The position numbers and the translations under genes are program-made. This document shows, one piece after another, positions 7,131 to 24,363 of a DNA stretch of 64,000 nt (position 1 is its first letter; every line of letters starts with the position of its first letter). The stretch covers positions 124,001 through 188,000 of the forward strand of contig NZ_CANLGU010000005.1 in NCBI RefSeq assembly GCF_947490405.1. The letters are read 5' to 3'. Source of the stretch: an uncultured Algibacter sp. Lineage in GTDB: Bacteria; Bacteroidota; Bacteroidia; Flavobacteriales; Flavobacteriaceae. The notes under the pieces were generated by a model. That model was not told the DNA's origin. It ran no database searches and saw nothing but the letters and a program-made list of their open reading frames with translations.

Positions 7131-8555
7131 TTACTCAATCATATTTCCTCTATAAAAATCTAAAACTTTAACGCGTAACAAATACTCGTATTTAGCATTT
7201 TCAAGATTGATTTTTGCATTATCCAAATTGTTCTTACTTGTGACATAATTAAGAAAGTTTGAAACGCCATTATTAAATCTTATTTCGTTTATTCGATAAG
7301 ATTCTTTGTAAGCTTCAACTTGCCTTAATAAACTTTGGTAGCGGTTATAAACAGCTTCCATATCAAAATAAACTTGAGATATCGTATTCTTTATATCAAG
7401 GTTAGTACGTTCTAAATCCAAGATAGATTCCTCCAACCTAATTTTCTCTAAAGCTACATTACTTTTTGCTCTAAAACCATTGAATAATGGTACGTTAAGA
7501 GCAACACCTACAACTGTATTTAAGTTATTATCTAATTGATCTTTGTAACTTATACTTTCAGGAGAAAACGATGTTTGTTCTGTCATTATTTGTAAATCTT
7601 GCCCATTTACAGTAACAAAATCGCCTGTTTCTATAATACTAGTTCCAGATGAGGTAAAAGTTTCAGCAGCACTGGAATAATTAGTATTTATACCTCCGAA
7701 TACTGAAATTTCGGGTGTAAACTGAGACTTAGCTACACTAACACCTTTCTTAGCTGCTTCTATTCGTAGTTCTCTGGCCTTAAAGGTTGCTAAATTTTCT
7801 AATGCCTCATTATAAACCTCATCAGAGGTCAAACTATATTTATCAAACTCTAACATAAGGGTAGCAGCATCAACTTTAACACCTCCTTTTAAATTCAACA
7901 ACCTTGCAAGTGCGATTTTTGCATTGTTAAAATTAGATTCAGAAACCAAAATATTAGTTTCATCATTAGCTATTTGTCCTAAAATGTCAGCATAATCAGC
8001 TGGGTTTCCAGACTCATTTTTGTAAAATCCTTCTTGAATTTTAAGCTGTTCTTTTGTGGTTTCAAACCTAGCTCTATTTAATTCTAAAACAGCCTTGTTA
8101 TTTAATACTTGAAGATAAGCTAACGTTACATTCAATACTAAATCTTGCTTAGCTGCTTCTAACTCGAGTTCAGAAGCTTTTCTATTTAAACGGTTTTGTC
8201 TTGCTGTATTAAGCAATCTAAAACCATTAAAAATTGTAGCATCAATACTTAAACCCATGTTTGAAAAGGTTAATTCCTGGTTTATAAAATCATTAGTAAA
8301 AGGATCAATACTTCTACCATCATTGACACCTAAATTAAAACGACCATTAACACTTGGCAATAAATTTGCTTTAGATTGTTGGTGATTAACTTTAGCAGAA
8401 TTAGCCAGTAAATTAACTGATTTTAAATCCAGATTATTTTCTAAAGCTAGAGTAATGCATTCATCCAAAGTATAGATTTTTTGATTAAAATCTTGACTAT
8501 TCGCTAACCACCCTACTAAAAGAATGAACACTAATAAAAAACGATTATTTTTCAT
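7131..8555 (-). CDS. TolC-family outer membrane efflux protein
   Basis: I place the start at ATG 8555, which gives MKNNRFLLVFILLVGWLANS, a clean signal peptide. An earlier ATG at 8588 would overlap the ATPase gene and spoil the signal. The mature ~455 residues carry two OEP repeats, each beginning with helices such as YTLDECITLALENN and ending in beta-strand/helix segments, the design of the outer-membrane channel of tripartite exporters. It is the last gene of a leftward cluster with adaptor, ATPases and permeases, so it very likely forms the exit duct for that ABC system. Confidence 0.9.
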   Translation of the reverse strand: MKNNRFLLVFILLVGWLANSQDFNQKIYTLDECITLALENNLDLKSVNLLANSAKVNHQQSKANLLPSVNGRFNLGVNDGRSIDPFTNDFINQELTFSNMGLSIDATIFNGFRLLNTARQNRLNRKASELELEAAKQDLVLNVTLAYLQVLNNKAVLELNRARFETTKEQLKIQEGFYKNESGNPADYADILGQIANDETNILVSESNFNNAKIALARLLNLKGGVKVDAATLMLEFDKYSLTSDEVYNEALENLATFKARELRIEAAKKGVSVAKSQFTPEISVFGGINTNYSSAAETFTSSGTSIIETGDFVTVNGQDLQIMTEQTSFSPESISYKDQLDNNLNTVVGVALNVPLFNGFRAKSNVALEKIRLEESILDLERTNLDIKNTISQVYFDMEAVYNRYQSLLRQVEAYKESYRINEIRFNNGVSNFLNYVTSKNNLDNAKINLENAKYEYLLRVKVLDFYRGNMIE

Positions 8556-8571
8556 GATATTTAAGTCAATA

Positions 8572-9243
8572 TTATACGATGCGTCCATCTAATAAATTAA
8601 TAATTCTGGAACCATAAGAAGCGTTTTGTTCTGAGTGTGTAGCCTGAATAATAGTTACACCCTCTTTATTTAATTCAGAAAATAACTCCATGATTTCTGT
8701 ACTTTGTTTTGAGTTTAAATTACCTGTAGGTTCATCAGCTAAAATCAACTTTGGGTTTCCAATTAATGCCCTTGCAATTCCAACCAATTGCTGTTGCCCT
8801 CCACTTAATTGCATTGGGAAAAGATCTTTTTTACCTACAATATTAAATCGGTCTAACATATCAGCAACCAAAGCTTTTCGTTCAGAAGATTTTACATTTT
8901 TATATAAAAGCGGAGTTTCAATATTTTCCCAAACATTAAGTTCATCAATTAAATGATATGCCTGAAATACAAACCCTATATATTCTTTATAGAGCTTTGA
9001 TCTATTTCTTTCTTTCATACTATGAACGGGCTCTCCTAAAAACACATAGCCACCATCAGTAAAATTATCTAGCATCCCAATGCAATTTAATAGTGTAGAT
9101 TTACCTGAACCTGAGGGCCCCATTAAGGAGATAAACTCACCTTCTTTAACTTCCATATCTATACTGTCCAACAAAGCTATTTTGTTACTTCCAGAATTGA
9201 CTTCGCGTGTTGCTTGACTTAATTTTAATATTTTATTTGCCAT
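8572..9243 (-). CDS. ABC transporter ATP-binding protein, MacB/LolD type (second ATPase)
   Basis: 223-residue ATPase subunit. Walker A GPSGSGKST is at 42-50, Q-loop VFQ near 92-94, signature LSGGQ at 146-150, Walker B LILADE at 166-171 and switch His at about 203. The family drives FtsX-like permeases in lipoprotein release or mechanotransmission-type export. It lies between the fourth permease gene and the tolC-like gene and is distinct from the ATPase at the front of the cluster. The signature is followed by QQLVGIARAL where the usual QQRVAIARAL occurs, a mild departure. Confidence 0.92.
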   Translation of the reverse strand: MANKILKLSQATREVNSGSNKIALLDSIDMEVKEGEFISLMGPSGSGKSTLLNCIGMLDNFTDGGYVFLGEPVHSMKERNRSKLYKEYIGFVFQAYHLIDELNVWENIETPLLYKNVKSSERKALVADMLDRFNIVGKKDLFPMQLSGGQQQLVGIARALIGNPKLILADEPTGNLNSKQSTEIMELFSELNKEGVTIIQATHSEQNASYGSRIINLLDGRIV

Positions 9244-9267
9244 TTTGATATTAATAATGTGTATATC

Positions 9268-11694
9268 TTATTCTGTTTTTAAACTTTCTACTGGATTGGT
9301 TATAGCTGTTTTTACCGTTTTTAAACTTATAGATAAAAGCACCAGCAAGAAAACGATGAGAACTGGTAGCAGAAATAACCAGATATGTAAATCAATTTTA
9401 TAAGCAAAATTTTCCAACCAATTTTGTAATAAAAGATAAGTAATAGGTACACTTATAATTACAGAAATCATTACTGTTTTAAGCGAATCTTTTGAGAGTA
9501 ACACTAAAATTGCTGTAGTGCTAGCTCCAACTACTTTTCTAATACCAATCTCTTTTCTTCTTTTAGCTACAGAAAAAGATGCTAACCCCAGTAAGCCTAA
9601 ACACGCTATGAGTATTGAAAAAGCTGTAAGAATCATAAATACATTTTTAAAACGATCTTCTGCTTTAAACTGCTTATCGTATTCCTGATCCATAAAAAAG
9701 TACGAAAATGGTGCTCCTGGATAAATTGTGTTAAATGTTTCTTTTACCTGTTTAAGGTTATCTTTTGGAGAACCTCCTATAAATTGAACAGTTGCCAAAC
9801 TTCTAAATGCATTATTAAATATATGAATTAGAGGTAGCATAGGTGATTTTGGTGATTGCTGGTGGTAATTTTTTACAACACCTTTAATTGTCCACTCGCC
9901 TCCCCAAAATGATAGTTTTTTATTTATCGCATCTTTAGGGTCTGTTATATTCCATTTTTCAAGCGCTTTTTCATTTACAATAACATGGCGCTTTTGTGGT
10001 GTGGTATTTTCTTCAAAATTAGATCCCGCAATCATTTCCACTCCTAGCAAAGGCACGTAATCCTTATCTACAAATGTGAGATAAAAGTTATGATACGCAT
10101 CGGGAGTAGTTCCAGTAATATGAATATCTGCTGTAGTAGATAAAGCTCCTGATGGCTGCCCTGGAACGGTATGCGACAAAGCAACTGCTTTTACGTTTGA
10201 ATTAGCCAATAAGTTTTGTTTGAATGCTGAATAATTTTGCGCTGCATTTTTAGCTGGTGCTTCTACAACAATACTTTGTTTTACATTAACACCTCTATCT
10301 AAATCTCTTAAAAAATCAATTTGTTCATTAACTGTAAAGGTTTGGATTAGTAAAATTGTAGTAATTGCAAATTGAAAAACTACAAGACCTTTACGTAACA
10401 AATTCCCTTTTATGGAATGCGAAAAATTTCCTTTTAGAATGGTTGACGGCTTGAAAGAAGACAATACAAAAGCTGGGTATAATCCAGAAAGTAATCCCCC
10501 AAAAACAATAAAAGATAGAAGTAACAACCAGAAAAACAAATTATTAAAAAGGCTAAAACTTTCTGGCAATCCTGAAAGTCCGATAAACTTAGATTTCACC
10601 ATAGCTACAAGTACTATTGCTAAACCTCCTGCAAGTATATTTAACACTAACGATTCTACTAAAAATTGAATTCTTAGCTGACTTTTAGTAGACCCTAATA
10701 CCTTTTTTACACCTACCTCTTTGGCTCTATCTAATGCCTGAGATGTAGTTAAATTTATATAATTTACAAAGGCACTTACTATGATTAATATCGCAACTGC
10801 AAAAAGAAAATAAACTGAATTAGCGTCTCCATTAGGCTCTGGTTCAAATGTTTTCTTAGAATACAGGTGAATATCTGTTATTTTTTGCCCAACTATAGCT
10901 TCACTTTTTATCTTTTTTTCATCAATCAATCTTTTACTAAAATCATCTAATGAACTTGCAAAATGATTAAAATCTGCTCCATTTGTTAACTGAACATACA
11001 TATAGGAATTGTTATTATTCCAATTATCCTTCTTTTCTCCATGTCGTCTTAACATTTCTGCATCTGTAAGCATGGTAGAATAAGAAATAAGCATATCTAC
11101 TTTAAGATGGGTATTAGAAGGACTATCATGAGTAACCCCAACTATATTATATAAAATATCTCCGTTAGGTCCGGGTGATTTTAAAACTTCTCCAACAACA
11201 TCTGTACGATTAAAGTATTTTAAAGCACTAGATTCAGTAATAACGGCTTCATTAGGTTTCTGAAAAAGGTTTTCTTTAGTGCCGTATAACAACTCATAAT
11301 TAAACATATTAAAGAAATCTGCATCAACAGCATACAAGTTTTTCATTAAAAATTGTTGTTCGCCAACTTGCATTGGCGAATTGGGCTCACCAATATCATA
11401 AACCCGTGTATATTTTTCTACTGCAGGCACTTCAGCTTTTAGTTTGGGACCCACTGCTGGATACATTTCACTGTCTTGAGTAGTTACTGTATTTCCAGTT
11501 AAATAATTTAATGTCAGTCTAACAATTCTATTAGCGTTCTGATGTGTGTTCTCATAACTTCTTTCAAATTGCACATATTGAACTATAAGCAATGTAATTG
11601 CAAAACCCGTTGCTAAACCTACTAGGTTTATAAAGGTGAGTCCCTTATTCCTAAGAAGATTTCTGAAAGCTATTTTGAAATAATTTTTTATCAT
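9268..11694 (-). CDS. FtsX/MacB-type ABC permease (fourth of the tandem set)
   Basis: 808 residues with the double MacB_PCD-FtsX design. An N-terminal helix near 21-42 is followed by a ~240-residue periplasmic domain, three helices near 290-410, a fifth helix near 430-450, a second periplasmic domain, then three helices near 685-800. The start (MIKNYFKIAFRNLL) and the end (NPVESLKTE) are shared with the three neighbouring permeases. The cytoplasmic coupling motifs RAKEVGVKKVLG and RRKEIGIRKVVG are present. It shows the most divergent C-terminal motif of the four. It should work with one of the two ATPases, the adaptor and the TolC-like protein. Substrate unknown. Confidence 0.9.
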   Translation of the reverse strand: MIKNYFKIAFRNLLRNKGLTFINLVGLATGFAITLLIVQYVQFERSYENTHQNANRIVRLTLNYLTGNTVTTQDSEMYPAVGPKLKAEVPAVEKYTRVYDIGEPNSPMQVGEQQFLMKNLYAVDADFFNMFNYELLYGTKENLFQKPNEAVITESSALKYFNRTDVVGEVLKSPGPNGDILYNIVGVTHDSPSNTHLKVDMLISYSTMLTDAEMLRRHGEKKDNWNNNNSYMYVQLTNGADFNHFASSLDDFSKRLIDEKKIKSEAIVGQKITDIHLYSKKTFEPEPNGDANSVYFLFAVAILIIVSAFVNYINLTTSQALDRAKEVGVKKVLGSTKSQLRIQFLVESLVLNILAGGLAIVLVAMVKSKFIGLSGLPESFSLFNNLFFWLLLLSFIVFGGLLSGLYPAFVLSSFKPSTILKGNFSHSIKGNLLRKGLVVFQFAITTILLIQTFTVNEQIDFLRDLDRGVNVKQSIVVEAPAKNAAQNYSAFKQNLLANSNVKAVALSHTVPGQPSGALSTTADIHITGTTPDAYHNFYLTFVDKDYVPLLGVEMIAGSNFEENTTPQKRHVIVNEKALEKWNITDPKDAINKKLSFWGGEWTIKGVVKNYHQQSPKSPMLPLIHIFNNAFRSLATVQFIGGSPKDNLKQVKETFNTIYPGAPFSYFFMDQEYDKQFKAEDRFKNVFMILTAFSILIACLGLLGLASFSVAKRRKEIGIRKVVGASTTAILVLLSKDSLKTVMISVIISVPITYLLLQNWLENFAYKIDLHIWLFLLPVLIVFLLVLLSISLKTVKTAITNPVESLKTE

Positions 11695-11717
11695 AACATT
11701 CCTTTTTTGATTGATGA

Positions 11718-14096
11718 TTACTCTGTTCGTAACGACTTAACTGGATTTGCAACTGCTGCAGTAATAGCTTGAAAACTAACAGTTACTAGAGCAATAATAA
11801 TGGCAGTTGCCCCAGCTAAAGCTATCATCCACCATTCAACATTTATCTTATAAGCAAAATCTTCCAACCAACTTTGCATTGCATACCAAGCAATGGGAGC
11901 GGCAACTATAAAAGATATGCCTACCAATTTTAAAAAGTCTTTTGAGAGCAGATTCACAATGTTTACTACAGAAGCACCTATTATTTTACGAATTCCAATT
12001 TCTTTTTTCCGTTGTACCGTACTGTAAGCGGCTAAACCTAGTAAACCTAGACATGAAATAAATATGGCTAATAACGCGAAGCTCAAAAATAAGTTTCCAA
12101 AGTCTTCTTCTGCTTCATATTGCGCATCAAAAAGCTCATCTAAAAAATAATATTCAAAAGGATCTGCAGGTTTCATAGATTTCCAAACATCTTCTATAGA
12201 ACTTAGCCCTTTGGAGATATTCTGTCCTTGTATTTTTACTGTAACAAGACTTGTACTAGTTGGATCTAAACGCATAGTTAATGGGCTAATATCTTGTTGT
12301 AGTGATCTAAAATTAAAATCCTTAATCACCCCTATAACTTGCCCATTACTTCCCCATTGATCATAACGAGCACCAACAGCATCTTCAGGATTTGAATACC
12401 CAAGTAGTGCTACAGTTTTTTCATTAATAACCATGGCTTTTGAAGAATCGGAAGGAAAATCTCTTGAAAAACCTCTTCCTGCTATAACCTCCATTCCCAG
12501 TTGTTCAATAAAATCTTCGTTAACAAAATACAAGTCCAAATTGGCAACTTGCATATCTCCATTTTGGTTTTCAACTTCAGAATACGCTGCTGGATTACCA
12601 GTTCCTGGTACACTAGAAGTAAGAGCTGTACCTTCTACCTCAGCAATTTGTTCAATTCTATTACGTAGTGCTTCCTGAGAACTCCCAGTTTCAGTTGGAA
12701 TAACCAAAGTGTGTTCTTTATTAAAACCTAAATCTTGATTTCGCATAAAATGCATTTGTTTGTAAATAACAATGGTTCCAATAATTAAGGCAATAGAAAT
12801 GGTAAATTGTACAACCACAAGACTCTTTCTGAGTAAAACACCTTTACTACCTTTAGAAAAGCTCCCTTTTAATACACTAACAGGTTTAAATGCAGAAAGC
12901 ACTATAGCTGGATATATCCCAGCAATAACACCAATTGAAAGTGCTATTACAAAAAGGTAAAACACATTAATGGGTTCGATAAAAATGCCTGTACTAACCG
13001 TTTTACCAGCCAAATCATTAAAGTATGGTAAACTTAAAGAAGCTAAACCGAGTGCTACTAAAAAAGAAAGCAAGCATACAATTATAGATTCTCCAATAAA
13101 TTGAAACGCGAGTTGATTTTTTCCAGCTCCAATAACTTTACGTATGCCCACTTCTCGGGCTCTTTCAACAGAGCGCGCCGTTGAAAGATTAATAAAATTA
13201 ATACTAGCAATTAAGAGTATAAAAATGCCTATTATTGAGAAGATATATACGTTATTAATGTTACCCGTAATATCGCCACCTCTATCTGATGCTAAATACA
13301 CATCGGAAAATGGTTCCAGAAAAAGTGTAACGAACATTTGGAGTTCTCGCATTTGATCTCCATTTTTCTCCTCAAGAAACTCAGGAAATTTAGATTCTAA
13401 TCTTTTAGGATCAGTACCATCTGCAACTAGTATATAGCTATAAGGATTATAATTACTCCAGTGCTCATCTCGATTATCTGGCGGTGCTGTAAAAGTTATC
13501 ATGGACATAATTATATCCGCCTGAATATGGGAATTTTCAGGAATTTTTTCCATAACTCCCATAATTAAACCAGGATCATCATATCCGTCTAAATCCAGTT
13601 GTTTTCCAACTGGATCAACATCACCAAAATATTTCTCTGCAATCTCTTCTGAAATTACTAGGTTATGAGGGTTCTTAAATAACGTTTTCTTTTCACCTTT
13701 GATTAATTTAAAATCGAAAATATCGAGAAATGCAGAATCAACTGCTATAACATTTTCCTCAATATTTTTTTTATCATCCCTTACCACAACCAAATTAAAA
13801 TTCGTGATACGAGTAGCCTTTAATACCTCTGGAAATTCTTTTTCTAAATTAGGTGCAACAGCCCATGCTGCTTTGTTTGCATTTATAGTCTCAGAAGGTG
13901 TTTTTATATCTGCAACTACTCTATAAATTGAGTTTGCTTTACTATGCATTTTATCGTAGCTCAATTCAAAACCTACATACATCAAAACAAGAAACCCAGC
14001 AGTCATTCCTATGGCTAAGCCACTAATATTTAAAGCTGTAAACCCTTTATGTTTTAGTAGGTTTCTAAATGCTATTTTGAAATAATTTTTAATCAT
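11718..14096 (-). CDS. FtsX/MacB-type ABC permease (third of the tandem set)
   Basis: 792 residues with the same double MacB_PCD-FtsX layout: N-terminal MIKNYFKIAFRNLLKHKG before the first helix, two periplasmic domains, and two groups of three helices preceded by REVGIRKVIG and KKEIGIRKIIG coupling motifs. It ends NPVKSLRTE. The 20-25 bp spacers before and after resemble the other permease spacers (the TTTTTTGATTGATGATTA type), which supports an origin by tandem duplication. Likely a membrane subunit of an exporter or mechanotransmission machine. Substrate unknown. Confidence 0.9.
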   Translation of the reverse strand: MIKNYFKIAFRNLLKHKGFTALNISGLAIGMTAGFLVLMYVGFELSYDKMHSKANSIYRVVADIKTPSETINANKAAWAVAPNLEKEFPEVLKATRITNFNLVVVRDDKKNIEENVIAVDSAFLDIFDFKLIKGEKKTLFKNPHNLVISEEIAEKYFGDVDPVGKQLDLDGYDDPGLIMGVMEKIPENSHIQADIIMSMITFTAPPDNRDEHWSNYNPYSYILVADGTDPKRLESKFPEFLEEKNGDQMRELQMFVTLFLEPFSDVYLASDRGGDITGNINNVYIFSIIGIFILLIASINFINLSTARSVERAREVGIRKVIGAGKNQLAFQFIGESIIVCLLSFLVALGLASLSLPYFNDLAGKTVSTGIFIEPINVFYLFVIALSIGVIAGIYPAIVLSAFKPVSVLKGSFSKGSKGVLLRKSLVVVQFTISIALIIGTIVIYKQMHFMRNQDLGFNKEHTLVIPTETGSSQEALRNRIEQIAEVEGTALTSSVPGTGNPAAYSEVENQNGDMQVANLDLYFVNEDFIEQLGMEVIAGRGFSRDFPSDSSKAMVINEKTVALLGYSNPEDAVGARYDQWGSNGQVIGVIKDFNFRSLQQDISPLTMRLDPTSTSLVTVKIQGQNISKGLSSIEDVWKSMKPADPFEYYFLDELFDAQYEAEEDFGNLFLSFALLAIFISCLGLLGLAAYSTVQRKKEIGIRKIIGASVVNIVNLLSKDFLKLVGISFIVAAPIAWYAMQSWLEDFAYKINVEWWMIALAGATAIIIALVTVSFQAITAAVANPVKSLRTE

Positions 14097-14120
14097 GATA
14101 ATTCGTTTTTTGATGGATAA

Positions 14121-16523
14121 TTATTCTGTTCTCAGTGATTTTACAGGATTAGCAATAGCTGCTTTAATTGCCTGAAAACTAACAGTAATAAGTGTAATTA
14201 TTATAGCCCCTAAGCAAGCTATAGCAAAGACATCCCAACCTAATGCTGTTCTATAGGTAAATTTCTGCAACCACTGTCCCATAGCATAATATGCCAATGG
14301 AGATGCTACTAAAATTGATATAACTACCAGAGTAATGAAGTCTTTTGAAAGTAATAACCATAATTGACTTATAGAAGCGCCTAACACCTTTCTAACACCA
14401 ATTTCTTTAGTACGCTGTTCTGCCACAAAAGATGCCAAACCGAACAAACCAAGGCAACTAATAAAAATAGCAAGGATTGTGAAGACTTTAGCTAAACTTG
14501 CTATACGCTCTTCTGCTTTAAACTTTTTCCCATACTCTTCATCAACAAACTGATATTTAAAAGGTATACTCGGAAAATTACGTTTAAATACAGCTTCTAT
14601 CACACTTAGACTTTCACTTACGCTTTTATTAGGATTCAAACGTAAATTATAATAGCTCGCATTTTCATGAGCATCAAAAACATACATGGCTTGCTTTACA
14701 GGATGATAAGCAGATTGCACAATCATATCTTTAATTACACCTATAATTTTTAATGTTGGTGCTGGATCTTCAACATCAGAATCTTTAATAAGCATTCCTA
14801 TAGGGTTTTGCAAACCCATATACTTTACTGCGGTTTCATTTAAAATAACAGCTGTACTATCCGTTGCAAACTCACGTGAAAATCCACGACCTGCAATAAG
14901 TTCTACATCCATGGTTTCTGCAAATTCATAAGATACAGATGTAAATGCTAAATCTTCTTGAAACCCTTCTGGTTTGCCTTCCCAAGTATAACCGCTCCTG
15001 TTGGACCAAACTTGTGTTGCTGGACTACTGGAAGTAGACATATTAATAATGGCGCCAGATTCTAATAATTGGCTCCTAATAAGATCTGCTTTACCTTCAA
15101 ATTCTGGACTCATCACTGGCAATTGAACTAATCCCTCTTTATCGTATCCTATAGGACGGTTTTTACTATATTGAATTTGGCTCATGACTACCATCGTTCC
15201 AATAATCAATGCTACCGAAAAGGTGAATTGCATGACTACTAAAACTTTACGTGGCAACGCTGAATAACGTCCTGCTTTAAATGTACCTTTTAAGACTGTT
15301 ACTGGATTGAAAGACGATAAATATAATGCTGGGTAACTTCCAGAAACTAACGCCGTAAATATTATAAATATTAATGATAGCATCCAGAAATTTGTATTCG
15401 ACCATGGAAAAACAATAGCCTTACTTGCCAAAGTATTAAAGCCATTTAAAAACAATAATACGATACCAATAGCCAAAGCAAATGCGAATGCAACTATTAA
15501 AAATGACTCACTTAAAAATTGAATAATTAATTGGCTACGGTTAGAACCAATAGATTTTCTGATACCGACTTCTGTAGCTCTTTTTTCTGAACGCGCAGTA
15601 CTTAAATTTATAAAATTGATACAAGCTAACAGTAAAACAAAAACACCTATAATACCAAAAAGCCAAACATTTTCAATACGTCCTCCTGTTTGTATACCAT
15701 CTTCAAAATTACTACGTAGGTGCCAATCTTTCATTGGTAATAACATTAGTTGCGGATTAAACTCTTCTATATCTTTACCTGCAACTTTCTTTTTAGCATC
15801 TCTTATAACTTCAGAAACAGCTGCTATAGTTGTATTTTCTTGAACTTGGACAAATAGTTGAAACGAATTATTACCCCACGAATCTTTTGCATTTCTCATC
15901 CAATCATAAGTCTGCATCATCATTTCCCAGTTACCTATATAATATAATTTGTTAAAAGAATTATTTTCTGGAATATCTTCATACACAGCAGTAACCATTA
16001 AGTCTCCCTCATAATTAACAGTAACGGGCTTTCCTATAGGATCTTCATCACCAAATAAATCTTTAGCTAAAGTTTCTGATAACATTATGGAATTAACTTC
16101 TTTTAATGCCTTATGATTGCCTTTAATCATTTTCAAATCCAGTAGAGCTGGCGCTCCTTCTTGCATAAAACTCCCTTCCCTTGAGAGGCTTTTATCCCCA
16201 ACTTGGAGGTACACAGAGTTATTCCAAGAAGACATTACAATATGCTTAAAGTAATCTGCATAATTTTGGCGTAGCTCAAATTCTAAAGGCCTTGGAATTG
16301 CTGATCCTGTTCCAGTTTTCCCGTTGAAAGTCTGACTTTGAATCATTTGGGCAACAGTAGATTTATTTGTAAAATAATCGTTGTGACTTAACTCATCGTT
16401 AATCCAAAGACCTATCATGGTTGCAACTGCCATACCTATAGCTAATCCAGAAATATTAATAAATGAATACACTTTGTTTTTGATAAGATTCCTAAACGCT
16501 ATTTTGAAATAATTTTTAAGCAT
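14121..16523 (-). CDS. FtsX/MacB-type ABC permease (second of the tandem set)
   Basis: 800 residues starting MLKNYFKIAFRNLIKNK, with the two-domain MacB_PCD-FtsX architecture and eight predicted membrane helices. Coupling motifs are RATEVGIRKSIG and RTKEIGVRKVLG. It ends NPVKSLRTE, identical to its two neighbours. The periplasmic domains are rich in aromatic and acidic residues and differ clearly from the paralogues, so the substrates or partners may differ while the membrane core is conserved. Confidence 0.9.
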   Translation of the reverse strand: MLKNYFKIAFRNLIKNKVYSFINISGLAIGMAVATMIGLWINDELSHNDYFTNKSTVAQMIQSQTFNGKTGTGSAIPRPLEFELRQNYADYFKHIVMSSWNNSVYLQVGDKSLSREGSFMQEGAPALLDLKMIKGNHKALKEVNSIMLSETLAKDLFGDEDPIGKPVTVNYEGDLMVTAVYEDIPENNSFNKLYYIGNWEMMMQTYDWMRNAKDSWGNNSFQLFVQVQENTTIAAVSEVIRDAKKKVAGKDIEEFNPQLMLLPMKDWHLRSNFEDGIQTGGRIENVWLFGIIGVFVLLLACINFINLSTARSEKRATEVGIRKSIGSNRSQLIIQFLSESFLIVAFAFALAIGIVLLFLNGFNTLASKAIVFPWSNTNFWMLSLIFIIFTALVSGSYPALYLSSFNPVTVLKGTFKAGRYSALPRKVLVVMQFTFSVALIIGTMVVMSQIQYSKNRPIGYDKEGLVQLPVMSPEFEGKADLIRSQLLESGAIINMSTSSSPATQVWSNRSGYTWEGKPEGFQEDLAFTSVSYEFAETMDVELIAGRGFSREFATDSTAVILNETAVKYMGLQNPIGMLIKDSDVEDPAPTLKIIGVIKDMIVQSAYHPVKQAMYVFDAHENASYYNLRLNPNKSVSESLSVIEAVFKRNFPSIPFKYQFVDEEYGKKFKAEERIASLAKVFTILAIFISCLGLFGLASFVAEQRTKEIGVRKVLGASISQLWLLLSKDFITLVVISILVASPLAYYAMGQWLQKFTYRTALGWDVFAIACLGAIIITLITVSFQAIKAAIANPVKSLRTE

Positions 16524-16565
16524 GATTTCTAAAGAATTACTGTTCGTTTTTTGATTGATGATTAA

Positions 16566-18995
16566 TTATTCTGTTCTTAATGATTTTACAGGATTCGCTA
16601 TGGCGGCTTTAATCGCTTGAAAACTTACAGTTAAAAGCGTTATAATCAAAGCAACAAACCCAGCCAAAAAGAAGACCCATAAACTTATATCTATACGATA
16701 GGTAAAATCCTGTAACCAATTTTGCATTGTAAAATAAGCTAAGGGTACTGCAATAACAAAAGCTATACCTACAAGTAAGACAAAATCTTTAGTCAATAAT
16801 TTAACCACCGTTTGCACACTAGCTCCAAGTACTTTACGAATACCTATCTCTTTTCTTTTTTGTTCGGCTACATAAGACACTAAACCAAAAAGACCTAAAC
16901 AGCTTATTATTATAGCTAGCATAGTAAACAGAATAGATATTTTACTAAGTCGTTGCTCTTCTACATAAAGTTTTTCAACTTCTTTATCGACGAAAGTATA
17001 CACAAATGGGATGTTAGGATTCGTGATTTTCCATTTGGCTGCTAGGTTAACAAGCAAGGATTTAAAATCATTTGAATTCGTACGCAAAATCATCCAGTTA
17101 GGCTGTGATTCGTTAAAAAGAATAAGTGGTTCTATTACAGATTTAAGAGAAGCAAAGTGATAATCATCAGAAACTCCTACAATTTCAAAATCTTGTCTTC
17201 TACCTTCATAAGTTTGGGATATAATCGAACCTATAGCACTATCAAGCTTTATATTAAAAACGTCTATCGTTGTTTTATTTACAACAACCTGAGTACTATC
17301 TTGAGCACGCAATTCTCTTCCTGCTAGTAATTTTATACCTGTGGTTTTAAAATAATCAGGTGTTATTGAATTATACATCACCTTTGTTTGTATCGTTGGA
17401 TCTGCACTAGGTAAATGCAATCCAACATCACCACGAATAAGTTGTGACGGATAATAATCACTACCAGCAATGGCAGCTACACCTCCAACAGACTTCATCT
17501 CCGTCATTATAGCACCATAGCGTTGTGAAACTACATCTGTGCCTAACCGAATGGCAAGTAGTTGTTCTTTATCAAACCCCATGTCCTTCTGCTGAGTATA
17601 TTTAAGCTGTTGTATAACGATAATTACAGAAGAAATCAATCCAATAGACACAACAAACTGGAACACTACCAAAGACTTACGTAACATGGCATGACCAGAC
17701 TTTGCACTAACTACACCTTTAAGCACTTTTACAGGTTTTATTGAAGAAAGTATTAAAGCTGGATAAACACCTGCTATTATTCCTGTGAGAAAACCTATTG
17801 CGGAAATGAGTAAAAGAATTTTATAATCTAGGAAATCAACAAAAGTAAGATCACCTTGAGTAAGCTCATTTAAAAAAGGAGAAACTAAAATGGCAATTGG
17901 AATACTAATTAGTGTAGCAATTAAAGAGAGTAAAACGGATTCACACAAAAACTGATTGATTAGTGAATTTTTACTAGCACCTACAACCTTTCTCACGCCT
18001 ATCTCCTTAGCTCGATTTTTTGCACGTGCTGTACTCAGGTTAACAAAATTAACACAAGCTACGAGTAAAATAAGTCCTGCTAGAAACAATAACACATATA
18101 AATTCTGAATATCTGAAACAGGGTCTATTTGACTTTCAATGCCTTTAGAAAATAAATGAATATCCTTAACAGGCTGAAGCAAAAGTGTTTTATCAAATCC
18201 AGACCTCTTTAAATCCTTTGCACCACGAGTCTGAAGAAATTCAGGTAGTTTTCCTTCTAATTCCGAAGCATTAACTCCAGATGTTAATTTCACATAACTA
18301 TAAACAAAATTTTGATTGGCATAATTCTGATTTTCTCTTACAAATTGTCCGACACCTGGGGTAAACATAGTCATCACATAATTGGGATTAAGATGTGATT
18401 TACCGCTTTGTTCATTGAAAACACCTTTTACTATTAGATTAAGCGCATCATCACCATCACCCATAATAACTTCTTTACCATACGCTTTTTCTGTGCCAAA
18501 CAGTTTCTTTGCTAATTTTGATGAAAGCACTACAGTATTTGGAGCATTCAATGCACTCGAAGGATTACCTTCTGAAAAAGAATATTTAAAAAATTCAAAA
18601 AATGTAGAATCGGCAACATATCCTCGGGGTTCATAGTACCCTTCTGTACTACCTTCTGCTCTTAATAAAGCATTGTCGCCTTCTCCAAAATAAACAATAC
18701 GACAGGCATCTTCTACTTCTGGAAAATCCTCCTTCATGGCAAAGACAATAGGTGGCCCTGAAGCCGCCCAAGTAGAATTAATACTAGTATTACCTATACT
18801 TTTAATATTTGATCTTACACGATACAAAGATTGCGCGTCGTCGTGATGTGTATCATATCCAAACTGAGCAAAAACATAAACAAGAATACTTATACAACAT
18901 ACAGTTCCAACAGTAAGTCCTAATAAATTAATACTAGTTTGAAGCCTATTTTTCTTAAGGCTTCGCCACGCTATTTTGAAATAATTTCTAAGCAT
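16566..18995 (-). CDS. FtsX/MacB-type ABC permease (first of the tandem set)
   Basis: 809 residues starting MLRNYFKIAWRSLKKNR. A first helix near 22-44 is followed by two periplasmic domains, with helical groups behind the RAKEIGVRKVVG and KRKEIGIRKVLG motifs and the shared C-terminus NPVKSLRTE. It is separated from the upstream ATPase gene by a 123-bp gap holding an imperfect hairpin, unlike the ~25-40 bp spacers between the permeases. This could reduce or uncouple permease expression relative to the adaptor and ATPase (inference). Confidence 0.9.
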   Translation of the reverse strand: MLRNYFKIAWRSLKKNRLQTSINLLGLTVGTVCCISILVYVFAQFGYDTHHDDAQSLYRVRSNIKSIGNTSINSTWAASGPPIVFAMKEDFPEVEDACRIVYFGEGDNALLRAEGSTEGYYEPRGYVADSTFFEFFKYSFSEGNPSSALNAPNTVVLSSKLAKKLFGTEKAYGKEVIMGDGDDALNLIVKGVFNEQSGKSHLNPNYVMTMFTPGVGQFVRENQNYANQNFVYSYVKLTSGVNASELEGKLPEFLQTRGAKDLKRSGFDKTLLLQPVKDIHLFSKGIESQIDPVSDIQNLYVLLFLAGLILLVACVNFVNLSTARAKNRAKEIGVRKVVGASKNSLINQFLCESVLLSLIATLISIPIAILVSPFLNELTQGDLTFVDFLDYKILLLISAIGFLTGIIAGVYPALILSSIKPVKVLKGVVSAKSGHAMLRKSLVVFQFVVSIGLISSVIIVIQQLKYTQQKDMGFDKEQLLAIRLGTDVVSQRYGAIMTEMKSVGGVAAIAGSDYYPSQLIRGDVGLHLPSADPTIQTKVMYNSITPDYFKTTGIKLLAGRELRAQDSTQVVVNKTTIDVFNIKLDSAIGSIISQTYEGRRQDFEIVGVSDDYHFASLKSVIEPLILFNESQPNWMILRTNSNDFKSLLVNLAAKWKITNPNIPFVYTFVDKEVEKLYVEEQRLSKISILFTMLAIIISCLGLFGLVSYVAEQKRKEIGIRKVLGASVQTVVKLLTKDFVLLVGIAFVIAVPLAYFTMQNWLQDFTYRIDISLWVFFLAGFVALIITLLTVSFQAIKAAIANPVKSLRTE

Positions 18996-19039
18996 AATTC
19001 TTTGTGTTACTGTTCGTTATTTTATTGATTTGACTTCAA

Positions 19040-19087
19040 CACTTCAGTATAAATATTTGATTAGTTGATTGATTTTATACTAAAGTG
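19040..19087. promoter_or_regulatory. Imperfect hairpin between ATPase and first permease
   Basis: CACTTCAGTATAAA (19040-19053) and TTTATACTAAAGTG (19074-19087) are complementary with one mismatch and enclose a 20-nt loop. There is no T tract, so it looks like an mRNA processing or stabilising hairpin rather than a terminator. Confidence 0.45.
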
Positions 19088-19118
19088 CTTTCCACCTGAT
19101 TGATTGATGAAAGTCGAT

Positions 19119-19805
19119 TTAAGCCAAAATGTTTTCTGTTACTTTTTGACCATCTAACATTCTTATAATACGATGACTATATTTTGCATCATGTTCACTG
19201 TGTGTAACCATAATTATAGTAGTCCCAGCTTCATTTAAATCGATAAGCAAATCCATAACCTCATTACCATTGGTACTATCTAAGTTTCCTGTTGGCTCAT
19301 CTGCTAAGATTAGTTTTGGATTATTTACAACCGCTCTTGCTACAGCTACACGTTGTTGCTGACCACCAGATAATTGCTGTGGAAAATGATTTCTTCGATG
19401 CATAATTTGCATCTTTTCTAAAACAGCCTCAACTTGTTTTTTACGTTCTGCTGGTTTTACGCCAGTATAGATTAATGGTAACTCTACGTTTTCAAAAACG
19501 GTAAGTTCATCTATAAGATTAAAACTTTGAAACACAAAACCTATGTTATGTTTTCGCAGTTCAGAACGTTTACGCTCATTATAACCAGCGACTTCAGTTC
19601 CATTAAATATAAAACTGCCTCCATCTGGATCATCCAATAACCCAAGAATGTTTAATAAAGTAGATTTTCCGCAACCTGAAGGTCCCATGATGGCAACAAA
19701 CTCACCTTGTTTTACATCAAAAGACAATTTGTTTAAAGCAATAGTTTGCACTTCTTCTGTTCGGTAAAACTTCTCTAAATCCGTAATCTGTATCATTGTA
19801 TTCAT
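19119..19805 (-). CDS. ABC transporter ATP-binding protein, MacB/LolD type (first ATPase)
   Basis: 228 residues. Walker A GPSGCGKST is at 41-49, Q-loop FVFQS near 91-95, a canonical LSGGQQQRVAVARA signature near 143-156, Walker B LILADEPTGNLDS and the switch His in VTHSEHD. It is the energiser for FtsX-like permeases and sits 16 bp after the adaptor gene, the standard adaptor-ATPase-permease order of MacAB-type systems. Of the two ATPases in the cluster this one has the more canonical signature. Confidence 0.93.
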   Translation of the reverse strand: MNTMIQITDLEKFYRTEEVQTIALNKLSFDVKQGEFVAIMGPSGCGKSTLLNILGLLDDPDGGSFIFNGTEVAGYNERKRSELRKHNIGFVFQSFNLIDELTVFENVELPLIYTGVKPAERKKQVEAVLEKMQIMHRRNHFPQQLSGGQQQRVAVARAVVNNPKLILADEPTGNLDSTNGNEVMDLLIDLNEAGTTIIMVTHSEHDAKYSHRIIRMLDGQKVTENILA

Positions 19806-19821
19806 TTTTATTGATTGTATT

Positions 19822-21072
19822 TTATTTTATAATTAACTCTTCTACATCTCCAAAGGAATCATAGCTTGATGTTACTACTTTATCGCCAGGATTCAATCCC
19901 TCTATAACCTCATAATATTCTGTGTTCTGACTTCCTAATCTTATATTAACTTTATAGGCTGTATCACCATCTTCACTTATTTTAAATATCCAGTTTCCTC
20001 CAGTTTTTTGAAAGAAGCCGCCTTTGGCTACTAATAAAGCTTGTTTTTCTGCACTTAGTGCTACACGAATCTGCAAGTTTTGCCCTCTCCTAATACCTTC
20101 GGGAACATCGCCTTCAAACTTCATATCTACTTGAAAACGGCCATTGGTTACTTGAGTAAAAACTTTTTTAATAACTAAAGTGTAGGCTTTATTATTAAAA
20201 GTGAATGTTCCTGTTTGTCCATTATAAATTCTTGAAATATAATGTTCATCTATATCTACTCTAACTTTATAACCGCTGGTAACATCTACTTGCCCCAATC
20301 GTGTTCCTTTGGTTATAGATTGACCAATTTCAGCATCTAAAGATGTTAATTGACCATCAATGGGTGCACGTACAACTAAGTCGCCTACTTTTTTTCGCAT
20401 AAGCTCCAAGGCACTCTGCGTTCTGGCATAAGAATCTCTTGCTTGATTAATCTCAAGTTTTGATGATAATGAATCTTCAGAAAGTACTTGTTTAGCTAAT
20501 CGCATACGTTCTTTTTGATACTCATAGTTGTTTTTAGAAGATTCAAAATCTTGTCTTCCAATTGCATCTTTTTCATACAAGCGTTTGTTTAAATTATAAA
20601 TGCGCTCTGCTTCAATAAGACCATTCTCAACGTCCGTAAATTGGTTTTGTCTATTTATTGTGTTCTGACGTGCAGCATTCTGAGAAATTTGCATTTGCGT
20701 TAGTAAGTTATATACTGAAGTTTCTTGATTAATAAGACTTAATTCTAAATCTGTATTAGATAATCTCAAAATTGGTTCACCTTTTTTTAACATCGCACCA
20801 TCTTCAACAAACTTTTCTTCTACACGCCCTCCTTCTAATGCGTCTAAATAAATTGTGGTTATTGGCAAAACAATACCATTAACTGGAATATTTTCTTGAA
20901 AAACATCTTTAGATACGGTATTAATAGAAATCCTTTCTTTATCCACATTCAATTTTGCGCCACCAGAGGTTTTGATAAACACATAAATGATTAATGCTAT
21001 GATAGCTAATACACCTCCGATGAGTATTAGTTTTTGTTTAGAGAATTTTTTCTTTTGAATTGGTACGTCCAT
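19822..21072 (-). CDS. HlyD/RND-type periplasmic adaptor subunit
   Basis: I place the start at ATG 21072 (MDVPIQKKKFSKQK), which puts a short basic cytoplasmic stretch before a single helix (IGGVLAIIALIIYVFI). An earlier ATG at 21117 adds 15 unlikely residues. Family parts follow in order: lipoyl half-motif, long coiled-coil hairpin (about 100-210), second lipoyl segment VVRAPIDGQL, beta-barrel and membrane-proximal domain ending GDKVVTSSYDSFG. The protein should bridge the ABC permeases and the TolC-like channel. It is the first gene of the cluster, behind a candidate sigma-54 promoter. Confidence 0.92.
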   Translation of the reverse strand: MDVPIQKKKFSKQKLILIGGVLAIIALIIYVFIKTSGGAKLNVDKERISINTVSKDVFQENIPVNGIVLPITTIYLDALEGGRVEEKFVEDGAMLKKGEPILRLSNTDLELSLINQETSVYNLLTQMQISQNAARQNTINRQNQFTDVENGLIEAERIYNLNKRLYEKDAIGRQDFESSKNNYEYQKERMRLAKQVLSEDSLSSKLEINQARDSYARTQSALELMRKKVGDLVVRAPIDGQLTSLDAEIGQSITKGTRLGQVDVTSGYKVRVDIDEHYISRIYNGQTGTFTFNNKAYTLVIKKVFTQVTNGRFQVDMKFEGDVPEGIRRGQNLQIRVALSAEKQALLVAKGGFFQKTGGNWIFKISEDGDTAYKVNIRLGSQNTEYYEVIEGLNPGDKVVTSSYDSFGDVEELIIK

Positions 21073-21100
21073 TTGTATATTGTTTTGACACTTATACCAT

Positions 21101-21116
21101 AGTGAAGATAATGCCA
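21101..21116 (-). promoter_or_regulatory. Candidate sigma-54 promoter of the ABC cluster
   Basis: Read on the minus strand, TGGCAT-TATCT-TCACT fits the -24 element TGGCAC well and the -12 element TTGC only partly, at the correct spacing. It lies ~29 bp before the adaptor ATG. The divergent neighbour encodes a sigma-54 activator, which raises the prior. Confidence 0.4.
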
Positions 21117-21168: not shown

Positions 21169-21207
21169 GTGTCCGATTTTGATACACTTTATGTTCGAAA
21201 CTGTACA
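21169..21207. promoter_or_regulatory. Paired candidate enhancer sites for the NtrC-like regulator
   Basis: Two related imperfect palindromes lie in the divergent intergenic region: TGTCCGATTTTGATACA (21170-21186) and TGTTCGAAACTGTACA (21192-21207). Both have the frame TGTnCGA...ACA. They lie 55-105 bp from the candidate -24/-12 element, the usual place for NtrC-type upstream activating sites. Confidence 0.5.
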
Positions 21208-21369
21208 CTTTTAATCACCAATATATTTTTGATTTGAGAGTCTTTTTAAGCTGAATATAAAATCGTAATATTGTAATACTACCACATAGAGTAAGTTTAA
21301 ATGATTATTTCAAAAAAACAGGCACCTATGAGGTAAACTTTCTATTAATTTAATCTCGATTATCGAGTA

Positions 21370-22722
21370 ATGGTTTTAAAAAACGCTACAATATTAATAA
21401 TAGATGATGATGCAGATGTATTAACGGCACTCCGATTACTTCTCAAACCTTTAGTTAAAGATGTTCAAACTGAAAAAAACCCAAGTAATATTACTGCGCA
21501 AATAGAACGTGCTCATTATGATATTATCATACTAGACATGAACTTTAATGGGTTAGTAAACACTGGTAATGAAGGTATTTTTTGGTTAAATAAAATTAGA
21601 AAACAAAAACCTGAAACTGCTGTAATTTTAATGACGGCATATGCTGATATTGATTTAGCGATTAGAGGTTTAAAAGAAGGCGCATCTGACTTTCTTATGA
21701 AACCCTGGAAGAACGAAAAAATTATTGAAACGATTACAACTATTCTTAGTAACAAAAAATCTATATCTTCAAAAAAGAAAAGCCTCAATTCTGATAGTGT
21801 TGAAATTATTGGTGAGAGTAGTGTTATGGAAGATGTATTTCTAAAACTCAAAAAAGTTGCTCCAACTGATGCTAATGTTCTTGTTTTAGGAGAAAACGGC
21901 ACAGGTAAAGATTTAATAGCTCGTGCACTTCATGAAAACTCTAATAGAAGAAACAAACCTTTTGTTAAAGTAGATGTTGGCGCTTTAACCTCAACACTTT
22001 TTGAAAGCGAATTGTTTGGGTACAAAAAAGGTGCTTTTACTGATGCTCGAGAAGATAGAAAAGGACGCTTTGAAGCTGCTAATGGTGGTACATTATTTTT
22101 AGACGAAATAGGAAACATCAGCCTAGGGCAACAAGTTAGATTATTAACTGTTCTTCAAAATAGGCAAGTAACACCATTAGGTTCAAACCAATCTATACCA
22201 ATCGATATCAGGTTAATTTGTGCCACTAACATTGATCCTAAAACCTTGGCAAATGAGAATAAATTTAGGAAAGATTTAATATACAGAATAAACACCGTAG
22301 ATATTACTGTACCTCCATTAAGAGAACGTGGTACAGATATTACAGCTCTATCACATCACTTTGTTTCACTTTATACAGAAAAATATAATAAAAATGCTTT
22401 TTCTTTTGATTCTGGTTTTATTTCAAAACTAAAAAAGCATCCTTTTCCAGGTAATGTAAGAGAGCTACAATATGTTTTAGAACGCGCAGTGATTATGACA
22501 GATGGTAACGTTTTAAAATCAGAAGATTTAGTCTTTTCTTCTATAGAACACGCCACCACAAATAAAACCATAGAAAATACAAGTTTAAATTTAGACGATA
22601 TTGAAAAGAATGCTATCCTAACTGTATTGGAAAAGAACAAAGGAAACGTTTCAAAATCTGCCAAAGAACTTGGTATTACTAGAGCTGCTTTATACAGAAG
22701 ACTAGATAAGTATGAACTATAA
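21370..22722 (+). CDS. Sigma-54-dependent response regulator (NtrC family)
   Basis: 450 residues in three domains. The receiver has phospho-acceptor Asp56 in IIILDMNF, the Thr of LMTA and the Lys of LMKPW. The AAA+ sigma-54 activation domain has Walker A GENGTGKD at 174-181, Walker B TLFLDEIGN near 241-249 and an R-finger region in FRKDLIYRINTV. A Fis-type HTH covers about 413-448. The sigma-54 contact loop reads GAFTDA (221-226) rather than GAFTGA. A perfect palindrome CTCGAT-T-ATCGAG (21355-21367) lies directly before the ATG. The gene overlaps the histidine kinase gene by 11 bp and diverges from the ABC cluster, its likely target. Confidence 0.93.
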   Translation: MVLKNATILIIDDDADVLTALRLLLKPLVKDVQTEKNPSNITAQIERAHYDIIILDMNFNGLVNTGNEGIFWLNKIRKQKPETAVILMTAYADIDLAIRGLKEGASDFLMKPWKNEKIIETITTILSNKKSISSKKKSLNSDSVEIIGESSVMEDVFLKLKKVAPTDANVLVLGENGTGKDLIARALHENSNRRNKPFVKVDVGALTSTLFESELFGYKKGAFTDAREDRKGRFEAANGGTLFLDEIGNISLGQQVRLLTVLQNRQVTPLGSNQSIPIDIRLICATNIDPKTLANENKFRKDLIYRINTVDITVPPLRERGTDITALSHHFVSLYTEKYNKNAFSFDSGFISKLKKHPFPGNVRELQYVLERAVIMTDGNVLKSEDLVFSSIEHATTNKTIENTSLNLDDIEKNAILTVLEKNKGNVSKSAKELGITRAALYRRLDKYEL

Positions 22723-24270: not shown

Positions 24271-24275
24271 ATTCG

Positions 24276-24349
24276 TGACCATGGCAGGATTCAAACCTGC
24301 AACCTCTTGAGCCGTAATCAAGTGCGCTATTCAGTTGCGCCACATGGCC
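24276..24349 (-). tRNA. tRNA-Arg (anticodon ACG)
   Basis: 74 nt on the minus strand. The acceptor arms GGCCATG/CATGGTC contain one G-U pair, the T arm is GCAGG-TTTGAAT-CCTGC, and the anticodon stem CTTGA/TCAAG encloses the loop TTACGGC, with ACG at positions 34-36. The discriminator base is A and CCA is not encoded. Confidence 0.93.
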
Positions 24350-24363
24350 TTTTTTCGTGGGTG

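Follow-up and report, generated by a model that had tools for sequence, protein, structure and literature searches.

Several described transport systems resemble, in one respect or another, the gene cluster considered here. In MacB, a half-size permease and its ATPase form one fused protein, DarBCD has one permease, and YbbAP, to our knowledge, has neither an adaptor nor a TolC of its own. Integron-like and other cassette arrays carry variable modules between conserved flanks. YbbAP of Escherichia coli is described as a type VII ABC transporter whose fused double permease, YbbP, has 10 transmembrane (TM) helices and forms a pseudo-dimer in a 2:1:1 YbbAP-TesA complex (PMC12646458), and MacB is reported to function as a homodimer (PMC5985334). 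Permeases annotated as acidobacterial duplicated orphan permease (ADOP) are recorded in 28 and 33 copies in two Dyadobacter genomes (PMC11573002).

The present locus was examined in a 64-kb stretch of DNA from an uncultured Algibacter sp., called the window below. Eight ORFs, from TolC to the adaptor, lie throughout on the minus strand in the gene order adaptor, ATPase a, four ~800-aa double FtsX permeases (P4 to P1), ATPase b and TolC. ORF and Pfam analyses thus confirm the inventory given in a preliminary description of this DNA, which listed an adaptor, an ATPase, four distinct double permeases, a second ATPase and TolC. For the adaptor we prefer the ATG start at 21072 over a GTG at 21117. 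The genes are as follows.

7131..8588, minus strand: TolC-family outer membrane channel, the distal gene (Pfam OEP, 1.1e-57)
8572..9243, minus strand: ATPase b, capping the array at its distal end (Pfam ABC_tran)
9268..11694, minus strand: permease P1, group g10 (MacB_PCD and two FtsX; nearest tree row 88%, in another genome)
11718..14096, minus strand: permease P2, group g5 (Pfam, structure model; nearest tree row 82%, best among 346 permeases 92%)
14121..16523, minus strand: permease P3, group g1, which is the most common of the groups (Pfam, tree; nearest relative 88%)
16566..18995, minus strand: permease P4, group g7 (Pfam, tree; closest permease 63% identical, encoded by genome G112 in an array with the other chassis type)
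19119..19805, minus strand: ATPase a, catalytic motifs conserved (Pfam ABC_tran; DarD/MacB/LolD class; motif alignment)
19822..21072, minus strand: periplasmic adaptor, MFP (Pfam HlyD_3; RND_mfp above cut-off)
21370..22722, plus strand: NtrC-type sigma54-activating response regulator, divergent from the array (ORF, Pfam)
22712..24055, plus strand: sensor histidine kinase (ORF, Pfam)

Each of P1 to P4 carries MacB_PCD plus two FtsX stretches. A structure model of P2 has, by our reading, 8 TM helices, two periplasmic domains and two coupling helices; its top fold match is YbbP (9ge6; Z 24.4, 654 aligned, rmsd 9.0), and the folds of MacB and LolCDE are matched as well. Pfam and the P2 model thus reveal the FtsX-type TM core, with a large periplasmic domain between TM1 and TM2, of type VII (MacB-like) transporters, and the adaptor and TolC genes of a tripartite system stand in the same cluster. 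The locus resembles MacAB-TolC in its tripartite exporter gene set and its MacB_PCD and FtsX domains. However, the MacB homodimer is built of a half-size permease from one permease gene, whereas several double permeases and separate ATPase genes are found here, and fused double permeases, YbbP for example, provide a fairer reference than MacB does. Like YbbAP, its best fold match, the array has a separate ATPase and a permease that joins two MacB-like halves and has two periplasmic domains; it differs in its 8 TM helices by the P2 model, against 10 in YbbP, in the presence of adaptor and TolC genes and in its 1-12 permeases, and YbbP has TesA as a partner. Only P4 was listed by the YbbP family model NF041854, at 24 bits against a cut-off of 999.

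Two further families are close in kind. DarBCD of the darobactin cluster (NF038008, NF038010 and NF038007), as presented in PMC7616364, likewise combines a double permease, an adaptor and a separate ATPase of the same classes, but all array proteins score below the curated cut-offs (DarB 127-160 versus 700 bits, DarC 182 versus 450, DarD 239 and 296 versus 375). P1 to P4 each match the ADOP model TIGR03434 over full length, at 244, 280, 276 and 320 bits versus a cut-off of 622, and that family is 'orphan' by name whereas the array has ATPases, an adaptor and a channel. A defence system was considered and set aside, as PADLOC models gave ATPase-type matches for the two ATPases only and none for the adaptor, P1, P2 or P4.

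We consider it likely that the locus encodes a tripartite exporter of type VII (MacB/YbbP-like) in which the chassis is fixed and the permeases can be exchanged. Around this core we infer export, its substrates and a route of recombination, and the three parts are predicted to form one exporting complex in which ATPase b presumably has a role. Each permease, as a fused pseudo-dimer, would use its conserved coupling helices to dock ATPase subunits and would work with the same adaptor and TolC, and thus each gene would add one pump having its own periplasmic substrate domain. The most likely job would be the export of toxic or hydrophobic compounds out of the periplasm or inner membrane. In marine flavobacteria, a variable row of permeases may allow a single pump to cope with a changing range of substances; the earlier suggestion of different substrates passing through one channel is in keeping with this, four distinct permeases standing beside one adaptor and one channel.

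Two other functions were weighed. The array might instead export the cell's own products, as is thought for DarBCD with darobactin. Aside from ADOP, the best NCBIfam models are indeed DarB for the permeases, DarC for the adaptor and DarD for the ATPases, but their scores all fall below cut-off and Pfam found no RiPP-type modifying enzyme in ten nearby ORFs, which makes this function unlikely. We assign a similarly small chance to envelope maintenance, in which lipids or hydrophobic compounds would be extracted from the inner membrane together with secreted hydrolases, as in YbbAP-TesA. The closest fold is that of YbbP, and in some arrays of other genomes esterase, S41 peptidase, serine beta-lactamase-fold or DUF2807 genes lie between permeases or before ATPase b. 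However, no such cargo gene is present inside the Algibacter array, and its adaptor and TolC genes indicate export out of the cell. In 30 arrays, long gaps are filled either by a similar ORF of 247-256 aa ahead of ATPase b (DUF2807 in both of the two copies tested) or by other cargo, and we therefore rejected the notion that these gaps are broken permeases.

The exporter reading with a fixed chassis draws on a survey of 66 arrays with 346 permeases. The kinase, regulator, adaptor and ATPase a are conserved, ATPase b is present in 64 of the 66 arrays and a TolC gene in 63, directly after ATPase b in 60 of the 64 arrays that have it. All 80 named loci show an identical layout of divergent regulator and kinase, and ten aligned adaptor orthologues are 72-90% identical. 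In each of the 43 genomes searched, ATPase b has a single match (E<=1e-80), and the distance from the adaptor downstream to this match is 10.6-34 kb. Walker A, signature, Walker B and H-loop are found in both ATPases, placing them in the MacB/LolD/FtsE class, and ATPase b deviates in the D-loop. Motif alignment gives NLNS plus LSGGQQQLVGIARAL for ATPase b and NLDS plus LSGGQQQRVAVARAV as the ATPase a counterpart, with NLNS in 7/7 ATPase b sequences, the Algibacter copy included.

Between these genes, arrays contain 1-12 permeases from 59 groups, in variable order. The same permease string was seen in 0/11 genome pairs whose adaptor genes are >=90% identical at the DNA level and in 1/17 pairs at 0.85-0.90, these 28 pairs being non-independent. 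Grouping thresholds of 45-70% leave 0 or 1 of the 28 pairs matching and P1 to P4 in four groups; at 40%, P1 to P4 form three groups and 2/28 pairs match. Comparison of the sequences shows that permeases vary in number, kind and order even among close species while the chassis stays. In close genomes, 55 of 69 similarity breaks lie no more than 30 nt from the start or stop of a permease gene (random 4.0%) and 63 no more than 60 nt (random 6.8%), and these alignments give good support to whole permease genes as the units of turnover, bounded by their starts and stops. The array resembles integron-like arrays in having variable modules flanked by conserved parts, and differs in that its borders are shared coding DNA plus spacers.

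It is rather improbable that lineage-specific losses from large, vertically inherited ancestral arrays explain all of this variation. Order is partly common to Winogradskyella and relatives (g1-g4-g3-g2 in many Winogradskyella), and thus loss from larger ancestral arrays accounts for some of it; permease-group overlap also drops with adaptor divergence (Jaccard means 0.60, 0.66, 0.39, 0.32, 0.19 and 0.10, close to far). However, losses alone fit poorly with differences in the same slot of close pairs (g6/g17 in G336/G350, g11/g35 in G325/G329) or with an allele that differs between alike ends, as in g1 of G336/G350 (ends 0.97/0.97, interior 0.74, adaptor 0.94). They also fit poorly with identical permease groups preceded by two adaptor types, ~39% identical to each other, and with g2 of G345/G347, whose interior is 0.97 identical versus 0.86 for the adaptor.

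The preliminary description also raised the prospect of heteromers, in which different permeases would join in one complex. The genes are co-located with short spacers, and coupling regions are conserved (within-array identity is 47-61% in coupling-helix regions and both gene ends, 20-32% in periplasmic regions and 25-58% in other TM parts). Such mixing is nevertheless unneeded, since the two transmembrane halves come from one and the same gene, P2 being modelled as a complete pseudo-dimer like YbbP in the YbbAP-TesA complex described in PMC12646458, and some arrays (G293 and G212) have just one permease. We regard heteromers as very unlikely.

Tandem duplication in place with later divergence in the lineage, the origin first proposed for P1 to P4, would account for adjoining genes of one family with like ends and spacers, and a group is present twice in 6/66 arrays at a 55% threshold and in 53/66 at 40%, but it is most improbable because P1 to P4 fall in four separate starred clades of an 86-row tree and 343 of the 346 permeases have their nearest relative outside their own array. 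The remaining three have it within the array, at 38-42%, and P1 to P4 are 29-37% identical to one another. The Algibacter label requires 4 changes on the tree, the maximum for 4 rows, so that the phylogeny proposed earlier as a check points to independent origins. Duplication may still be the very old origin of the permease family. Relative to nearest relatives, dN/dS is 0.04-0.13 for P1 to P3 and 0.15-0.21 for P4, with dS near saturation.

The gene ends had been offered as further support for duplication. NPVKSLRTE ends three of the four permeases, whereas P1 ends in NPVESLKTE; the supposedly common N-terminus is MIKNYFKIAFRNL in P1 and P2, MLKNYFKIAFRNL in P3 and MLRNYFKIAWRSL in P4. The spacers between permeases (23, 24 and 42 nt) are alike as described, with common CATCAA(TCAA)AAA(C/G)GAA-type DNA. 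However, arrays of other genomes also show like spacers and ends, and therefore these features alone are no proof of duplication here. The longest exact DNA common to two permeases begins at codon 1-2 and measures 18-22 nt in all 6 pairs, versus 12-16 nt in a control >60 nt from gene ends. A 20-mer search of the genome located this junction DNA as follows.

11669..11688, minus strand: junction 20-mer AAAAATTATTTCAAAATAGC, start of P1
14071..14090, minus strand: the 20-mer at the start of P2
16498..16517, minus strand: the 20-mer at the start of P3
18970..18989, minus strand: the 20-mer with 1 mismatch, start of P4

At <=2 mismatches, P1 to P4 are the sole sites of the start 20-mer in the 3.69-Mb genome, and 133 of the 346 permeases across arrays have it. 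Likeness of gene ends at the DNA level is family-wide. Homogenisation of ends was measured as synonymous identity against an amino-acid-corrected expectation, with matched cross-genome controls. Cross-group observed/expected ratios were 1.27 within arrays versus 1.24 across genomes for gene starts and 1.15-1.19 versus 1.10-1.15 for gene ends, and the first 60 nt had equal mean identity in both settings. Given this very small effect, we make no claim of recent homogenisation inside arrays, and the gene ends may be kept alike for translation. Among permease pairs with interior identity held at 0.72-0.80, identity of the last 60 nt falls from close to far chassis (0.845, n=23; 0.800, 340; 0.770, 703; 0.728, 91), as does that of the first 36 nt (0.864, 0.779, 0.759, 0.737). 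For pairs with interiors 0.65-0.72 identical, no chassis trend is seen in the first 36 nt (0.699, 0.678, 0.714, 0.716, close to far), a comparison to which start-codon calls add noise.

With these caveats in mind, we tentatively propose a hot-swappable pump with which flavobacteria would renew their repertoire for export or resistance. Whole permease genes would be exchanged within and between species through ends kept alike for that purpose, and a combinatorial array of 1-12 out of at least 59 types would result, serving a fixed adaptor-ATPase-TolC chassis under one stress switch. Homologous recombination in the DNA common to permease ends and spacers would let incoming genes insert themselves or take the place of resident ones. 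Full-text literature searches, some on neighbouring topics, yielded no description of such arrays among the matches listed. If correct, the proposal would describe a natural modular efflux system with a conserved chassis and variable, exchangeable substrate-handling subunits, and the specificity of MacB/YbbP-type pumps would become directly testable in a native array. It could also help to account for the high copy number of permeases of this kind in Bacteroidota. The adaptor and ATPase b provide markers for finding and sorting arrays.

Candidate elements for the switch lie upstream of the adaptor.

21099..21116, minus strand: sigma54-type promoter-like box TGGCATTATCTTCACTAT (pattern match, 0 mismatches, 0 in shuffles)
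21169..21187, minus strand: inverted-repeat enhancer-like site GTGTATCAAAATCGGACAC (sole match of a data-derived pattern in 3.69 Mb)
21191..21208, minus strand: second, degenerate copy of the enhancer-like site (by-eye reading)

The box pattern was drawn from the Algibacter and orthologous regions, and thus its significance test is partly circular. TGGCAY is kept upstream of the adaptor in orthologous regions, and the enhancer-like site together with TGGCAY precedes the adaptor in 57/66 arrays and in 0 mononucleotide shuffles. The -12 part of the box is degenerate and departs from the canonical GC, and RpoN is encoded in the genome. A generic sigma54 consensus with a standard -12 element occurs at chance level in the 64-kb window (7 found versus 6.2 expected). 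Sigma70-type promoters number 59 (shuffled mean 69.8) and terminator-like sites 5 (shuffled mean 8.1), with 0/5 in array spacers. We read the array as being under one putative sigma54-type switch, whereby the kinase would sense envelope stress and the pumps would be turned on together from the promoter ahead of the adaptor. A tRNA-borne island was rejected, since tRNA genes of any kind are found in just 8 of the 80 named loci. In the Algibacter locus, a tRNA-Arg flanks the kinase gene.

The preliminary description of this region listed a tripartite ABC gene cluster with an adaptor, two ATPases, four FtsX permeases and TolC, and our ORF and Pfam assignments bear this out. Read in the direction of transcription, the minus strand carries the adaptor, ATPase a, P4, P3, P2, P1, ATPase b and TolC. 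Divergent from the adaptor are genes for a response regulator of the NtrC type and for a histidine kinase.

19822-21072, minus strand, adaptor (ORF and Pfam)
16566-18995, minus strand, permease P4
14121-16523, minus strand, permease P3
11718-14096, minus strand, permease P2
9268-11694, minus strand, permease P1

Each permease is about 800 amino acids long and carries MacB_PCD and two FtsX stretches, and the six pairs share 29-37% identity by BLAST. The 3.69-Mb genome, assigned to the Flavobacteriaceae from its best named relatives, encodes one more double permease, which is unlinked and has its own TolC, adaptor and ATPase.

P2 used as a query matched 104 of 299 genomes of the family at E ≤ 1e-20 (the window's own included). 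An adaptor alignment found 261 loci, the best 80 of which make up the named loci. From these sources we assembled 66 arrays with the same chassis type as the window, each taken from ATPase a as far as ATPase b or TolC: 43 via named loci, 13 complete within their locus, nine from family genomes, and the window. Left out were 24 of the 80 named loci, including L048, L089 and L092, whose contigs equal in length those of the included G201, G146 and G175. Array statistics describe genomes selected by the window's adaptor type, close genome pairs are non-independent, and start codons were set mechanically, which shifted some gene-end comparisons.

Across these arrays there are 346 complete permeases (between 1 and 12 per array), which single linkage at 55% identity sorts into 59 groups; the group numbering depends on this threshold, and the main results are stable at 45-70% and less so at 40%. 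Tandem duplication had been proposed for the four permeases, a proposal that the comparisons contradict. P4, P3, P2 and P1 belong to four different groups (g7, g1, g5 and g10) and to four separate starred clades of an 86-row tree (quick method, one model), wherein the rows of highest identity all come from other genomes (P1 88%, P2 82%, P3 87%, P4 63%); that of P4 is a permease of G112, whose array has the second chassis type described below. Only 3 of the 346 permeases find their top match within their own array, at 38-42% identity. Among 915 within-array pairs in the 66 arrays, the median identity is 32% and the maximum 80.5%, with 11 pairs at 50% or more. Judged by these sequences, the window's four permeases most probably did not arise by duplication in place.

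Array alignments indicate that permease turnover proceeds by whole genes. An identical permease string occurs in none of 11 genome pairs with adaptor genes at least 90% identical, and in 1 of 17 pairs at 85-90%. The usual difference is one module, such as g6 versus g17, g11 versus g35, or loss or gain of a single gene. Breakpoints, defined in 28 close pairs as the ends of high-identity stretches (at least 250 nt and 84%), fall no more than 30 nt from the start or stop of a permease gene in 55 of 69 cases (4.0% at random) and no more than 60 nt away in 63 of 69 (6.8% at random). Eight array differences were also inspected in 30-base bins. The g1 genes of G336 and G350, whose adaptors are 94% identical, match at 97% at both ends and 74% in the interior; here an allele was apparently replaced inside its ends. 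For interior identities of 0.72-0.80, both gene ends track chassis closeness (closest class, n=23 pairs). At 0.65-0.72 a weak trend is seen for the 3' end (0.789, 0.787, 0.764, 0.721) and none for the 5' end. We consider an exchangeable permease set on a fixed chassis to be the probable explanation, held slightly less firmly because of this missing 5' trend.

The chassis is, as far as gene content and order indicate, fixed around a variable permease middle. All 80 named loci have one layout, in which kinase and regulator are followed by adaptor and ATPase a. ATPase b was matched (E ≤ 1e-80) once per genome in 43 of 43 genomes searched; it lies 10.6-34 kb downstream of the adaptor, in the same orientation, and has an internal stop in G331. 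In a wider sample of the order (393 genomes), 20 have it at E ≤ 1e-90, the window's own included, and all 20 belong to the window's family. A second chassis type comprises TolC, adaptor, ATPase and permeases, its adaptor sharing about 39% identity with that of the window. Nine of its genomes carry ATPase b on the array's contig (71-76% identity). The sole match in two others with two permeases (G010 and G020) is ATPase-a-like (50-54%), and the genome search found no ATPase b in the lineage-A one-permease genomes G293 and G212. At least eight permease groups are common to both adaptor types (g1, g3, g5, g6, g7, g9, g10 and g12, in the numbering of a separate, earlier grouping).

A P2-like match was present in a single one, G008, of nine further genomes of the genus. 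Its array has three permeases, with one group in common with the window. The window's adaptor is 73% identical to that of G008 and up to 91% identical to those of other genera, a pattern suggesting mobility of the whole cluster. Within the genus, the cluster is patchy (the window's genome and one of nine others).

The gene joints resemble one another in DNA. Permease-permease spacers have a median length of 29 nt (n=279). Among spacers of at most 300 nt, TCATCAATCAA is present in 34 of 259 between permeases, in 29 of 62 between ATPase a and a permease, and in 5 of 86 before ATPase b or TolC; counts for AAACGAAC are 38, 31 and 2, respectively, and shuffled means for both are 0 to 0.4. Within arrays, 202 of 373 spacer pairs have an 8-mer in common (shuffled 36); for pairs from different arrays the figure is 10267 of 23717 (shuffled 2559). 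Over the first ten codons, permeases belonging to different groups show synonymous identity at 1.27 times expectation, with TTC at phenylalanine 6 in 109 of 182 (17% overall) and ATA at isoleucine 8 in 236 of 333 (30% overall). In the window's genome, a 20-mer at the gene starts (up to two mismatches) is found nowhere but at the four permeases. Across arrays, 133 of 346 permeases carry it, these belonging to 27 of the 59 groups, and 39 of 66 arrays have it in at least two groups. The likeness runs through the whole family and is scarcely stronger inside an array than across genomes, which weighs against the exchange reading, so that a translational role for the shared gene-start DNA is possible. 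ATCA tetranucleotide runs of variable length also precede permeases (for example, in ATPase a-permease spacers of G325, G329 and G334) and are possible slippage sites.

A structure model of P2 (pLDDT 84, pTM 0.76) displays eight TM helices as read from the model (seven segments by hydropathy alone), a pair of periplasmic domains and a pair of coupling helices, and on this prediction P2 corresponds to a MacB dimer fused into one chain. Its best fold match is YbbP (Z 24.4, 654 residues, rmsd 9.0, 13% identity). Within arrays, identity is 47-61% in the coupling regions and at the ends, against 20-32% in periplasmic regions, as though parts fitting shared partners are kept and parts that may meet substrate vary. 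Given this pattern, the simplest reading is that each permease would form one pump on the shared chassis. ATPase b retains Walker A, signature, Walker B and H-loop in a motif alignment, and its D-loop reads NLNS in seven of seven sequences.

Upstream of the adaptor lie an inverted-repeat site that occurs once in the genome, a second, degenerate copy, and a sigma54-type promoter-like box (TGGCATTATCTTCACTAT), the patterns of site and box being derived from the window's and orthologous regions themselves. The site together with TGGCAY lies ahead of the adaptor in 57 of 66 arrays; the combination also precedes 30 of the 346 permeases, mostly those of g2 (25 of 42), and was absent from mononucleotide shuffles. 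Where it lies ahead of g2, the g2 permease, ATPase b and TolC would form a second transcript under the same regulator. The window's genome has an RpoN gene. For COG0577, this permease class, the accessible part of a published regulon study reports sigma54 enrichment in Bacteroidia, gamma-Proteobacteria and Opitutia, Flavobacteriia not being among the groups named there (PMC12316311). Examples of g2 permeases with a second enhancer-like site and TGGCAY upstream are found in G334, G325, G342 and G345.

Several neighbouring features were also recorded. A tRNA-Arg (24275-24349) lies directly past the kinase gene, and the adjoining 24335-28560 encodes a Crp-like regulator, a sulphur-transport protein, TauE and a rhodanese/metallo-beta-lactamase protein (Pfam), possibly with a role in sulphide or thiosulphate handling and probably unrelated to the array. 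A 605-amino-acid protein at 5304-7121 contains long charged RKxDSIAxA-type repeat runs and has no Pfam match. In 30 of 66 arrays, the window's not among them, similar ORFs of 247-256 amino acids separate the last permease from ATPase b (for example, L128:9815-10558 and L142:2483-3253); both sequences put through Pfam are DUF2807 (PF10988). Some arrays carry hydrolase-like cargo among the permeases or adjoining ATPase a, including an esterase with PA14, DUF1028, a serine beta-lactamase-fold protein and an S41 peptidase (L046:14579-16117, L014:8727-10265, L014:15775-16554, L127:8259-9458 and L127:14597-15856), which recalls the hydrolase partner of YbbAP-TesA.
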